NCBI GenBank assembly: GCA_007694885.1
Contig: REEW01000028.1
Location: 1-34,886 of the forward strand
Length of the DNA: 34,886 nucleotides
Origin: Wenzhouxiangella sp.
GTDB taxonomy: Bacteria > Pseudomonadota > Gammaproteobacteria > Xanthomonadales > Wenzhouxiangellaceae
Reading direction: 5' to 3'
Every line of letters starts with the position of its first letter. Within the stretch, counting starts at the first letter, position 1. Positions 26,960-30,950 of this stretch are shown piece by piece. A program made the position numbers and the translations under genes. Below the pieces are notes generated by a model that made no database searches, was not told the origin of the DNA, and saw only the letters and a list, made by a program, of their open reading frames with translations.

Positions 26960-28266
26960 AACGCGTCGAGCCTCGCCTGCACCAGATCCAGCGCCTCGCC
27001 GAGTTCAATCGCCGGCGGCTCGAAGCGCAGCGACCTCAGTGCTTCCAGGTCGGAGCGGGCTTGAGCCACGTCCTCGGAGGCCGGGTCGAACCAGTCGTCG
27101 AGCAAGTTCAGGGCGGCGTCGAGGTGGATTTCAAGAGCGTCGGGGGCGCGCCGGGAAAGGGCCAGCTGAGCAGCCACCAGGCGCAGCTGCAGCTGCTCGC
27201 GGGCGGCCTGAAACTGCTCATCGGTCCGCCCCAGGTCGTCGCGCGCCTCGATCCGGACCAGGCCGCGCACGGCCGCGCCGAGCCGTTCGCGCCATCCGGC
27301 CGGCGCTTCAGTGTCCGGAGACTGCGCCGCCGGCGCTTGCGCCCGATCACCCAGTCGGGTCGGCCAGGCTCGGCTTTCCCGATGCAGTCGGTCCAGTCGT
27401 GCCAGTTCACGGTTTACATCCACGGCGCGGACATTTTCCAGGGCTTCAAGCTCCGCGGCCAGGGCGCGTCGCGCTCGATCGAGGCGGGCATCGTCGACAT
27501 CGTCCAGAACCCGGGCCGCTCTTCGAAACGCCCGTTCCGCACCGGCGAAATCAGCGCTCAGTTCAGCCCGCTCCTGGCCAATGCGCAGCAGTCCGGCCGC
27601 TTCCAGCATCGCCATCTGACGGCGCAGGTCGCGATCGACCTGGCGCTCGACATCGCCGCGCTCGGCGAACTCCTCGACCGCCCCGGCAAGCCGCTCGGCC
27701 AGTCCATCGACGGCCGCGCCCAGATCATCCACTTGCGCCTGCAACGGCGCGACTTCGTCTGCGAAACGGGCATCGAACCGATCATGCAGTTCGTCGAGTC
27801 GGTCGCCCAACTGATCAAGCGATTCCGCCAACTCGCCCAGACCCTCGTCGACCCGTTCCTGCGTGGCCAGGGGCTGATCGGTCACCTCGGCCTCAAGGTC
27901 GCCGACCCGTGCATCCAGTGCCTGCAGGCGTTCCTGCTCGACGGATGGTTCGCCTGACGGCCCCGCATCTTCGGCGCCCGGAACCAGTTCATTGTAGTTG
28001 GCCCAGCCGGTCATGCCGAGCGCGGCCAGGGCGACGATCAGGGCAAGAAAAGCCAGACCGCGACCGCCGGCAGCCCTGGACGCAGCCGGCTGCGACTGCG
28101 GTTCGGCCACGGACGAACCGGCCGTACCCGATCCGTCGGCCGTTACGTCAGCCCCGCCGCCTTCGGTCTGGTCGGTGCTGTTGGGCTGCTCGGTTTGCTC
28201 GTGTTTTTCGCTGCTCATGGCTTCGTTCATGAGAGCCGGTTTCAAGGCTCTCCCTGTCCTTCTCAT
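26956..28266 (-). CDS. hemX: HemX family membrane protein
   Basis: 436 aa from ATG 28266, which overlaps the hemD stop by 4 nt (ATGA); in-frame ATGs at 28230 and 28218 are alternatives. An acidic, low-complexity cytoplasmic N-terminus of about 68 residues, one membrane helix (about 70-89, GLAFLALIVALAALGMTGWA), a coiled-coil region (about 110-200, heptad-like LDxRxxDLxxE patterns), then a helical domain with RQMAMLEAAGLLRIGQERAEL and LHLDAALNLLDDWFD-type helices near the end. Earlier reports called HemX a uroporphyrinogen methyltransferase; no SAM-binding methylase motifs are visible here. It is probably a structural partner of HemY and HemD. Confidence 0.88.
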   Translation of the reverse strand: MRRTGRALKPALMNEAMSSEKHEQTEQPNSTDQTEGGGADVTADGSGTAGSSVAEPQSQPAASRAAGGRGLAFLALIVALAALGMTGWANYNELVPGAEDAGPSGEPSVEQERLQALDARVGDLEAEVTDQPLATQERVDEGLGELAESLDQLGDRLDELHDRFDARFADEVAPLQAQVDDLGAAVDGLAERLAGAVEEFAERGDVERQVDRDLRRQMAMLEAAGLLRIGQERAELSADFAGAERAFRRAARVLDDVDDARLDRARRALAAELEALENVRAVDVNRELARLDRLHRESRAWPTRLGDRAQAPAAQSPDTEAPAGWRERLGAAVRGLVRIEARDDLGRTDEQFQAAREQLQLRLVAAQLALSRRAPDALEIHLDAALNLLDDWFDPASEDVAQARSDLEALRSLRFEPPAIELGEALDLVQARLDAF

Positions 28267-29042
28267 TCAACAGAGTAACTCATCGGCAAAAGCTCGGGGC
28301 GTGCTAGTGCGAGGGCGGTCAGCATCGAGTGGTCGTCAGCGCCGGCGGCACCGACGACTTGCCGGCAACCGGCCGCACGGGCAAGGTCGGCGACGCGACG
28401 CGATGGCGCAATCACCAGGCCGGAAGTCAATGTCCGCCAGGCCGCCGTGGAGAAATGCCGTTGCAGTCCCTCCAGGGCGCCGCCGCTGGCCAGCAGGGCC
28501 ACCAGGTCGTCGCCGGCGGCCAGCGTCGCGAGCAGGTCGGCACTCGGACGGGCCGGAAGACGTCGGTACACGTGCACGCGGTGCACCTGCGCGCCACGCT
28601 CGCGCAGGGTTTGCTCGATCAGGCGGCGCCCGCCGGAGGCGCCAAGAATCAGGACGCGCCGGCCGTCGACCGCCTGCAGTGCGGGCAAATCGAGGATGCG
28701 CTCGCTGGTGCCCTGATCGTTCGGCGCCAGCACGTTTCCCAATCCCAGCGCGGTGGCCACGCGCGCCGTACCCCGGCCGGGTACGACAACGGGCATGCCG
28801 GCGAGGCGACCAGGATCAACCAGGGTGACCAGCCGGCGCAGCGCCTCGGCCGATGGCACCACCAGGCAGTCTGCCGGAAGCAGCGCCAGCAAATGGCGCC
28901 GAATCGCATCCGGGTCGGCCGGGCCGCGCAAGACCACCGGGGCGTAATGCAAAGCCGCAAGCCCGGCCGCGCGCAGGCGGCCCGCCAGGGCTTGTCCCTC
29001 GGCGCCCGAGCGGGTCACGAGAATGCGGGCTGGTGAGTTCAT
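28263..29042 (-). CDS. hemD: Uroporphyrinogen-III synthase
   Basis: 259 aa from ATG 29042 (MNSPARILVTRSGAEG fits the family; a TTG-type longer start adds MWHR). Weakly conserved family recognised by ILVTRSGAEGQALAGRLRAAG at the start, the mid-protein GRRVLILGASGGRRLIEQTLRERGA and the closing VIAPSRRVADLARAAGC. Cyclises hydroxymethylbilane, inverting ring D, to uroporphyrinogen III. Unlike most relatives it does not follow hemC closely: a 239-nt gap with a structured RNA and a terminator-like hairpin ends 14 nt before its ATG. The ribosome site is poor (GTTGTGGCATCGC). Confidence 0.9.
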   Translation of the reverse strand: MNSPARILVTRSGAEGQALAGRLRAAGLAALHYAPVVLRGPADPDAIRRHLLALLPADCLVVPSAEALRRLVTLVDPGRLAGMPVVVPGRGTARVATALGLGNVLAPNDQGTSERILDLPALQAVDGRRVLILGASGGRRLIEQTLRERGAQVHRVHVYRRLPARPSADLLATLAAGDDLVALLASGGALEGLQRHFSTAAWRTLTSGLVIAPSRRVADLARAAGCRQVVGAAGADDHSMLTALALARPELLPMSYSVE

Positions 29043-29056
29043 GCGATGCCACAACG

Positions 29057-29084
29057 CAGAAAGCCTGCCGAAGCAGGCTTTCTG
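29057..29084 (-). terminator. UUCG-capped terminator or attenuator hairpin before hemD
   Basis: Perfect 12-bp stem CAGAAAGCCTGC / GCAGGCTTTCTG; on the minus strand the loop is TTCG closed by a C-G pair, the very stable UUCG tetraloop. The terminal run is TTTCTGCGTT, so a short form (AGCCTGC/GCAGGCT then TTCTG) is a plausible intrinsic terminator of moderate strength. It ends 14 nt before the hemD start. Confidence 0.65.
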
Positions 29085-29230
29085 GTAATAGATCCCGGGT
29101 GCCTAGCCTGAACCACCAAGATGCTGGGGGCTTGCGTGTTGGCGTTGGCAGTAGGGGGACGCACCTCAACAGATCAGACTGTGGTTGGCACCCGGAAAGC
29201 GAATCGAATTCCCCTACGCGAAACCGTAGT
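29057..29230 (-). ncRNA. Structured RNA between hemC and hemD: leader/attenuator or small RNA
   Basis: About 174 nt from a predicted start near 29230 to the UUCG hairpin. Helices seen: P1 CCGGGTGCC (29187-29195) with GGCACCCGG (29095-29103), 9 bp; P2 AACCAC with GTGGTT (29181-29186 and 29111-29116), 6 bp, stacked on P1 with a 7-nt bulge on one side; P3 TGCGT/ACGCA (29159-29163 and 29133-29137). The 5' CTACG/CGTAG hairpin (29214-29218 and 29225-29229) competes with a 7-bp GTAGGGG/CCCCTAC pairing (29211-29217 with 29151-29157). The bulge contains CAGGCT, complementary to AGCCTG of the terminator's 5' arm. No long reading frame with a ribosome site is evident. I cannot match it to 6S, 4.5S, tmRNA or Rsm families by eye. 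Strand is inferred from promoter and terminator. Confidence 0.55.
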
Positions 29231-29234
29231 TGAC

Positions 29235-29263
29235 ATTCTGCCACCGTCACACTGCGCTGTCCA
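29235..29263 (-). promoter_or_regulatory. Sigma-70-like promoter facing hemD
   Basis: On the minus strand TGGACA (29258-29263), exactly 17 nt, CAGAAT (29235-29240); five and four of six bases match consensus. It lies just after the hemC stop and upstream of the structured RNA. Confidence 0.5.
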
Positions 29264-29281
29264 GCCCGTGATGCACTTTTT

Positions 29282-30199
29282 TTACTCCGGCAGTGCGGCG
29301 ATGATTTCCCGACCGCCGTGGGCAAGCAGGTGGCGGCCTGCCTCCCTGCCAATCGCGGCTGCATCCGTGCGCCGTCCATGAAGCGTGATTTCGACCGCCT
29401 CGCGGCCGTCGGGGCTGCACAGCCGCGCGTACAGGCTGATTCGATCGGCGGCGTCGATTTCGGCCAGGGCCGCGAGCGGCATGCGGCAATCGCCGCCGAG
29501 CGTGGCCACGACCGCCCGTTCGGCGGCGACCTGGTCGGTGGTCAGGGCGCAGGCCAGGGGCGCCAGCAGCGCCTCGGTCCGTTCGTCATCATGACGAATC
29601 TGGGTCACGATCACACCCTGGCCGGGCGATGGAATGAATTCCGGCGGAGCCAGGGCCAGCTTGTGCTGCAGCGGGAACTGCAGCCGCTGCAGGCCGGCGG
29701 CGGCCAGGATCACCGCGTCGACCTGGCCGCTGGTCATCAAGCCCATTCGAGTCTGTACATTGCCCCGAATCGGCACCACCTGCAGATCGGGATAGCCGCG
29801 CAACAGCTGGCTCTGACGGCGCAGGCTGGAGGTGCCCACTTTCGCTCCCGGCGGCAGCTCTCCGGGCCCGCGCCCGTCCGCCGTCAGCCACCAGTCAGCC
29901 CAGTCACCCCGGGGCAGCACCACCGACAACTTCAGGCCCGGGGGCGATTCGGCCGGCACGTCCTTGAGCGAGTGGACGGCGATATCGGCCTCGCCGTCGA
30001 GCAAGGCACGTTCCAGTTCCTTGAGAAACACCCCCTTGCCGCCGATTTCCGACAGCGACCGATCAAGCACCTCGTCGCCGCGCGTGCTCAGGGGCAACAG
30101 CTCGAGATTCAGGTCGGCGTGATGACGCCTGAGTTCGGCGGCGACGTGTTCGGTCTGCCACAGGGCGAGTTTGGATTGTCGGGTTGCCAGTCGGATCAT
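29282..30199 (-). CDS. hemC: Hydroxymethylbilane synthase (porphobilinogen deaminase)
   Basis: 305 aa from ATG 30199 (MIRLATRQSKLALWQ is the family start; the longer ORF is rejected). Catalytic Asp80 in HSLKDVP, substrate-binding VGTSSLRRQ and RGNVQTR, and Cys238 in GGDCRMPLAA, which carries the dipyrromethane cofactor. Polymerises four porphobilinogen units into hydroxymethylbilane, the substrate of HemD. The 37-nt gap to algR holds a TACAAT box (30221-30226, minus strand) that could be a local promoter. It ends TAA followed by AAAAA and the RNA gap. Confidence 0.96.
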   Translation of the reverse strand: MIRLATRQSKLALWQTEHVAAELRRHHADLNLELLPLSTRGDEVLDRSLSEIGGKGVFLKELERALLDGEADIAVHSLKDVPAESPPGLKLSVVLPRGDWADWWLTADGRGPGELPPGAKVGTSSLRRQSQLLRGYPDLQVVPIRGNVQTRMGLMTSGQVDAVILAAAGLQRLQFPLQHKLALAPPEFIPSPGQGVIVTQIRHDDERTEALLAPLACALTTDQVAAERAVVATLGGDCRMPLAALAEIDAADRISLYARLCSPDGREAVEITLHGRRTDAAAIGREAGRHLLAHGGREIIAALPE

Positions 30200-30236
30200 G
30201 AATCGGCCTGTCTTGTATTCATTGTATTTGCAGACA

Positions 30237-30950
30237 TCAGCTGGTGAGCAGTCGGCGGATGGTTGCCAGGTTACGCCGACTGACCTCGGGCCGCACCCGG
30301 CAACCCTCGACCTCGACCCGCTCATGGCCGTCCGGGTCGCGAACCAGCGCGCGCAGATGCTGGCGGCTGACCAGGGCGGCCCGGTGCACGCGCACGAAAT
30401 GCTCGCCGAAACGCTCTTCCAGGCTCATCAGCGAATCCTCGATCAGGGCCTCGCCACCCACATAGTGCACGCAGGTGTACTTGTCTTCGGCCAGCAGCAC
30501 GCGCACCTCGTCGAGCGGTATCGCCAGCAAGCGCTCGCCCAGCCGCGCACTCAGCGTGATCCGGCGGCCCCGGCCGCGCTGTCGTGTCGCCGCGGCCCGT
30601 CTGAGCGCCTTGTCCAGGCGTTCGGCGCGGACCGGCTTGACCAGGTAGTCGAGTGCGTGCAGGTCAAAGGCATCGACGGCGTATTGCTCGAACGCGGTGA
30701 CGAAGACAATCTGCGGCGGCTGGTCGAGGCGCAGCATGCGCCGGGCCGCGCTGACCCCGTCCATGCCCGGCATTTCCACGTCCAGCAAGACCACGTCCGG
30801 GTGCAGGCTCAGGCAGGCCTCCAGCGCCTCGCCGGCATGACTGGCCGAGCCGGCGAACTCGGCCAGCGGATGGTCCTGCAGCAAGCGCTGGAGCCGCCGT
30901 ACTGCCGGGGCCTCGTCGTCGACAACCAGCACGCGCAGCGGACCGCTCAC
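30237..30950 (-). CDS. algR: LytTR-family response regulator (AlgR-type)
   Basis: 237 aa, GTG start. Receiver 1-120 with acidic pair D11-D12, phospho-acceptor D57 (LLDVEMPGMDG), T85 (VTAF) and K105 (LVKPV); LytTR DNA-binding domain from about 130 to the end (AIPLDEVRVLLAEDKYTCVHY, FVRVHRAALVS). The AlgR group controls alginate, type IV pili and twitching in Pseudomonas, and lies next to hemC there too, which supports the name. The usual partner kinase gene (algZ/fimS) is missing from its upstream position. A carboxylesterase gene is there instead, and its stop overlaps the algR GTG by 4 nt (GTGA). Confidence 0.87.
   Translation of the reverse strand: MSGPLRVLVVDDEAPAVRRLQRLLQDHPLAEFAGSASHAGEALEACLSLHPDVVLLDVEMPGMDGVSAARRMLRLDQPPQIVFVTAFEQYAVDAFDLHALDYLVKPVRAERLDKALRRAAATRQRGRGRRITLSARLGERLLAIPLDEVRVLLAEDKYTCVHYVGGEALIEDSLMSLEERFGEHFVRVHRAALVSRQHLRALVRDPDGHERVEVEGCRVRPEVSRRNLATIRRLLTS

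Follow-up and report, generated by a model that had tools for sequence, protein, structure and literature searches.

The gap that separates hemC from hemD in Wenzhouxiangella sp. raises the question of whether it holds a leader that controls hemD or an RNA gene in its own right. In the window (the whole stretch of DNA analysed, 34,886 nucleotides of contig REEW01000028.1), this gap covers positions 29043-29281 on the minus strand. Pfam searches place hemC on one side (29282..30325, minus strand; PF01379, E 1.5e-72) and hemD on the other (28263..29042, minus strand; PF02602, E 6.8e-28; ATG at 29042), followed by hemX and hemY. The listed hemC frame is probably 42 codons too long at its 5' end, the true start of the gene most likely being the internal Met of MIRLATRQSK. 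An earlier note on this DNA had described the gap as a structured, promoter-driven RNA closed by a terminator hairpin, and read it mainly as an attenuator or riboswitch of hemD-hemX-hemY, with a small RNA as the alternative. The structured RNA is borne out by its promoter, folding energy, covariation and conservation across the family; as to its role, the small RNA is the better fit.

Promoter and structure of the RNA

The minus strand of the gap folds with an energy of -71.4 kcal/mol (z = -3.5). The promoter-like TGGACA-N17-CAGAAT already pointed out in the earlier note is present at 29263-29235 and has the organization of a sigma-70-type promoter (29235..29263, minus strand), with a -35 TGGACA, a 17-nt spacer, a TG and a -10 CAGAAT. 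It matches 9 of the 12 consensus positions, in addition to the TG before the -10, while 0.1 such matches are expected from shuffled sequences. A counterpart was found in all 36 family sequences examined, as a T(G/A)GAC(A/T) -35 and a NANNNT -10 spaced by 17-18 nt, the -35 being exactly TGGACA in 31 of them; for L011 the promoter script chose a more distant upstream match, and the counterpart TGGACA-N17-CAAAGT is also there. From this promoter the transcript is expected to start near 29228. Together with the position of the terminator and the conservation within the family, this predicts an RNA of ~174 nt (29055..29228, minus strand).

Most of the predicted RNA is a long rod. Its base, P1, pairs a 5' arm UCCGGGUGCC (29187..29196, minus strand) with a 3' arm GGCACCCGGG (29094..29103, minus strand) through 10 pairs, with 100% of the cells of the alignment paired and 7 pairs changed on both sides. 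A one-sided bulge AACCAC (29181..29186, minus strand), the CCAC of which is largely kept across the family, leads to P2/P3, where the 5' arm (29161..29180, minus strand) and the 3' arm (29105..29124, minus strand) form 18 pairs, 13 of them changed on both sides, with 95.5% of the cells paired. RNAalifold predicted 42 pairs, including 26 with changes on both sides. The earlier note had held that a lack of covariation in relatives would refute its reading; instead, covariation is strong, as both-side changes affect 20 of the 33 pairs of the 106-nt rod, with 97.5% of the cells paired, a level reached by 0 of 500 shuffles and not approached with slid partners either. G-U pairs make up about 15% of the paired cells when the minus strand is read, and on the opposite strand these cells would turn into A-C mismatches; the RNA is therefore the product of the minus strand. 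Judged by comparison of sequences, the gap contains a real structured RNA gene. Among the competing 5' helices that had been proposed, the hairpin CUACG..CGUAG is not conserved.

The 5' leader (29197..29228, minus strand), located between the predicted start and P1, contains a G-run, GUAGGGGA, that is conserved and complements the C-run in the apical loop. GGGG occurs in this leader in 28 of 36 sequences, against 8.4 expected from dinucleotide shuffles, and the leader of L021 carries GGCAGUAG in place of GGGG, complementary to CUACUGCC. The energy of pairing between the leader G-run and the loop is no stronger than for G-rich hemC sequence. From this complementarity, the G-run could cap the loop.

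Conservation of the apical loop

The feature that the earlier account lacked, and that needs relatives to be seen, is the invariant loop at the tip of the rod (29125..29160, minus strand). This C-rich loop of 36 nt, GUCCCCCUACUGCCAACGCCAACACGCAAGCCCCCA, is near-identical in all family members possessing hemC/hemD. In an alignment of 35 sequences it is nearly invariant, with variable stems, and its core is more conserved than the proteins of the flanking genes. It includes a UCCCCCU motif that is invariant across the family. The loop may contain a mini-hairpin, CU..UGC/GCAAG, which shows hardly any variation among full-length RNAs and whose pairing is preserved by a G-U change in one solitary copy. 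In summary, the comparison indicates that the 36-nt apical loop is the functional core of the RNA, presumably acting in trans.

Distribution and genomic context

Of 151 relatives, 38 have matches to the gap DNA. A covariance model of the 106-nt hairpin recovered the RNA in 36 of 43 Wenzhouxiangellaceae genomes and in 4 of 39 genomes from a sister family that belongs to the same order. The full RNA is nearly always located between hemC and hemD, and the match lies there in most loci examined, even where HemD identity is just 31-45%. In the genome G030, a methyltransferase-like gene (a 395-codon open frame, L025:250-1500) has come to stand between hemC and the RNA. In the sister family, the RNA of L147-L149 occupies the hemC-hemD gap and its loop has partly changed, and L041 has the RNA directly after hemC. 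Outside these groups, a search of 369 genomes drawn from the class, scoring the best candidates per genome, retrieved the genome of the window itself and one weak match (29.7 bits), which is unconvincing and apparently lies inside a coding sequence. Rescoring the hemC loci of 25 genomes with filters off gave no RNA. Phages and plasmids searched for the loop pattern contained none, and viral contigs gave a single loose pattern match (L269). Within the family, five genomes (G031, G032, G033, G036 and G037) have hemC and no detected RNA; many genomes are draft MAGs and the genome searches scored the best candidates of each, so such absences are no proof.

Four small Wenzhouxiangella genomes (G004, G006, G020 and G023; 1.3-2.1 Mb) have neither hemC nor hemD by Pfam search, which suggests that these organisms are heme auxotrophs; the genomes G006 and G023 are 95-98% complete. 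G004 and G006 retain hemY and a hemX-like gene, and in both the promoter and the RNA are kept at the same chromosomal place, between an esterase gene and hemX-hemY. No terminator was seen between the RNA and hemX in these two genomes. Therefore, these genomes show that the RNA is independent of hemC and hemD, a conclusion that does not extend to hemX-hemY.

Solitary copies of the loop

The same loop recurs at unrelated loci as solitary copies (solos), where it is carried by a 12-13-bp stem, GGYYGCCCGGC..GCCGGGCRRCC. They occur in G003, G005 (two), G007, G017, G018 (two), G027 and two other MAGs (L101 and L110), and two further ones have diverged loops (L037 near 3627, and L207). The compact solos consist of stem and loop alone, without the G-run leader, and keep two half-sites, CCCUACUGCCAACGCCAA and GCAAGCCCC, separated by a variable spacing of 0-3 nt. 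An extended -10 (TG-NANNNT) ends 7-9 nt before the hairpin in 8 of 12 solos, counting the two with divergent loops and with that of L110 read by eye, and is absent from the other 4. Some candidates were discarded: the hairpin is missing at L086, L107 and L112 despite a match to the loop pattern, and L202 in G053 has the stem and no loop. At L101:1232-1366, a decayed solo stands just before an apparent tRNA 3' end (GGTTCGAACCC..CACCA), where ARAGORN found no whole tRNA.

The surroundings of the solos, where open reading frames were called with a simple GC-frame script and no curated annotation, often include toxin-antitoxin, phage or defence genes. AbiEi/AbiEii genes lie within about 0.3-0.6 kb of the solos L033:3249-3311 and L034:3603-3668, in different genomes and with different AbiEi types. 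Other neighbors are a SIR2-like protein and a transposase-like gene (L150), a weak integrase match (L110), a Toprim/AAA protein (L038), a phage capsid (L087) and an Xre/MbcA-like antitoxin (L037). Immediately downstream of L034, L037, L084 and L110 there is no gene in the same orientation, so these solos are unlikely to be leaders.

The stem shared by the solos and their location in accessory regions, together with the tRNA-like 3' end near L101 and the weakly integrase-like gene beside L110, would also suit an element acting at the DNA level, such as a REP-like repeat or an attachment hairpin, rather than an RNA. Nevertheless, the G-U pairs fit one strand only, the full form conserves a promoter and a terminator, copies are few per genome, and perfect hairpins with the same stem and unrelated loops occur at chance level; on this last ground a REP-like repeat family was rejected. 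We consider a DNA element highly improbable.

The terminator and hemD

The terminator announced by the earlier note is a 12-bp hairpin with a UUCG loop (29057-29084, minus strand) that ends 14 nt before the hemD ATG, and its stem covaries in the alignment. Less of the claim stands for the U-tract, which is weak in the clade of the window, and for this reason a simple terminator scanner did not list the window terminator; most relatives have a longer U-run. The distance from the terminator to hemD is about 10-70 nt in most family members, and in the window hemD does lie too close behind the hairpin for another promoter, as had been stated. In L147-L149 of the sister family, a -10-like TGCTANANT can be seen by eye between the RNA and hemD, where a consensus scan gave no promoter.

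This arrangement is what would be expected of a cis-acting attenuator or ligand-sensing leader, in which the RNA sets terminator read-through into hemD-hemX-hemY. Like intrinsic attenuators and riboswitch leaders, the gap combines a promoter, a structured RNA and a terminator directly before a gene, and the terminator does lie upstream of the gene that it would control (hairpin 29057-29084 and hemD ATG at 29042). Furthermore, hemD is near in most relatives, it invariably comes after the RNA (as does hemX where hemC/hemD were lost), and the large conserved loop of the RNA could accommodate a ligand. However, unlike in such leaders, no conserved anti-terminator was found. The CAGGCT (29105-29110) proposed for this function, as part of a free bulge, is paired with AGUCUG (29175-29180) in a covarying helix and is therefore not supported in this role, and a non-systematic look at the alignment revealed nothing else conserved that would pair with the terminator stem. 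Nor does the element always head a transcription unit, as the solos L034, L037, L084 and L110 illustrate: the same loop module is found in free-standing hairpins without a downstream gene. The weak U-tract of the window clade also speaks against attenuation as the main role, which we regard as unlikely. Because solos occur at unrelated loci, some of them without a downstream gene, and because G004 and G006 keep the RNA without hemC and hemD, a small RNA is favored over a hemD attenuator. A secondary effect in cis is expected all the same, since in the window any transcription that reaches hemD from upstream has to pass the terminator, which probably lowers read-through into hemD-hemX-hemY as a by-product.

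Comparison with known RNAs

The Rfam search suggested in the earlier note (release 15, including RF00013) gave no family at or above its gathering cut-off in the window. The best sub-threshold match was isrB, with 18.2 of the 35 bits required, mostly from the terminator hairpin. 6S RNA, the candidate of that note, resembles the gap RNA in length and rod shape; the gap has no match to 6S, which this genome encodes on another contig (C149:6992-7180, 84.4 bits). A literature search found no paper on the hemC-hemD C-loop RNA, which, with no Rfam match either, represents an undescribed RNA family.

The closest comparison is with sX13 of Xanthomonadaceae, a 115-nt RNA with three stem-loops encoded downstream of polA, which represses mRNAs carrying G-rich motifs near the start codon, for which Hfq is dispensable, and whose loop 3 has the motif UCCCCCU (PMC3771888). 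Both RNAs belong to a related group (Lysobacterales/Xanthomonadales), display UCCCCCU in a C-rich apical loop, and are compact and structured, each conserved within one family at a single locus with varying flanks. In contrast to sX13, the gap RNA is ~174 nt long and lies between hemC and hemD instead of downstream of polA, consists of one long rod, one 36-nt loop and a terminator instead of three stem-loops, and has dispersed mini-copies. By analogy, the gap RNA possibly resembles sX13 in its mode of action, without belonging to that family, as locus, length and fold differ. As cited in the same paper, RepG/HPnc5490 of Helicobacter pylori also has a UCCCCCU loop and represses tlpB, a gene with a G-rich motif in its mRNA (PMC3771888). 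It shares this loop motif with the gap RNA and is unrelated in sequence and location; the loop of the gap RNA is far longer, and its invariance extends beyond the C-run.

Possible modes of action

We infer transcription of the RNA, action in trans and pairing with G-rich sites. In our likely, preferred reading of the sequences, the gap is the gene for an independent ~174-nt small RNA that would act in trans through its loop. It would be transcribed in the direction of hemC from its own promoter near 29263-29235, end at the hairpin 29057-29084, and fold into one long rod (P1, the 6-nt bulge and P2/P3) displaying the C-rich loop as its working part. The preferred chemistry, by analogy with sX13, would be pairing of the short C-run seeds UCCCCCU and GCCCC with G-rich mRNA sites. 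Extended antisense pairing to a shared target is unsupported, since complementary TTGGYRGTRGG sites show no enrichment (3-14 per genome, compared with 8-29 for the reversed control), and was set aside.

The invariance of all 36 loop nucleotides exceeds the needs of a short C-run seed and counts against seed pairing. Since the whole loop is invariant, purines included, a protein partner is nearly as likely as C-run pairing. The RNA would then be a scaffold or a sponge in the style of CsrB or 6S, with the loop as the protein site and the solos as minimal sites or decoys; this possibility, to which we give a smaller though appreciable chance, overlaps with the preferred reading, as it also implies action in trans through the loop. 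The variable spacing of 0-3 nt between the half-sites is easier to reconcile with a folded site than with continuous antisense pairing, and the missing enrichment of complementary sites agrees with this. However, the loop lacks the GGA motif of CsrA sponges, and the RNA is not 6S.

The small-RNA reading, with trans action through the loop, could also be extended to the solos. In a speculative and rather doubtful scheme, the hemC-hemD RNA would be a core regulator that holds its loop in check with the G-run of its 5' leader, and the solos of defence islands and mobile elements, which lack this leader, would be permanently open mimics that capture its target, a host RNA thus coexisting with element-borne decoys.

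A loop that hardly changes between stems that vary freely and compensate points strongly to a specific partner, and the solos in accessory islands offer a ready-made minimal version of this loop for finding it. More generally, an RNA gene that resides within an operon can be mistaken for a hem attenuator.
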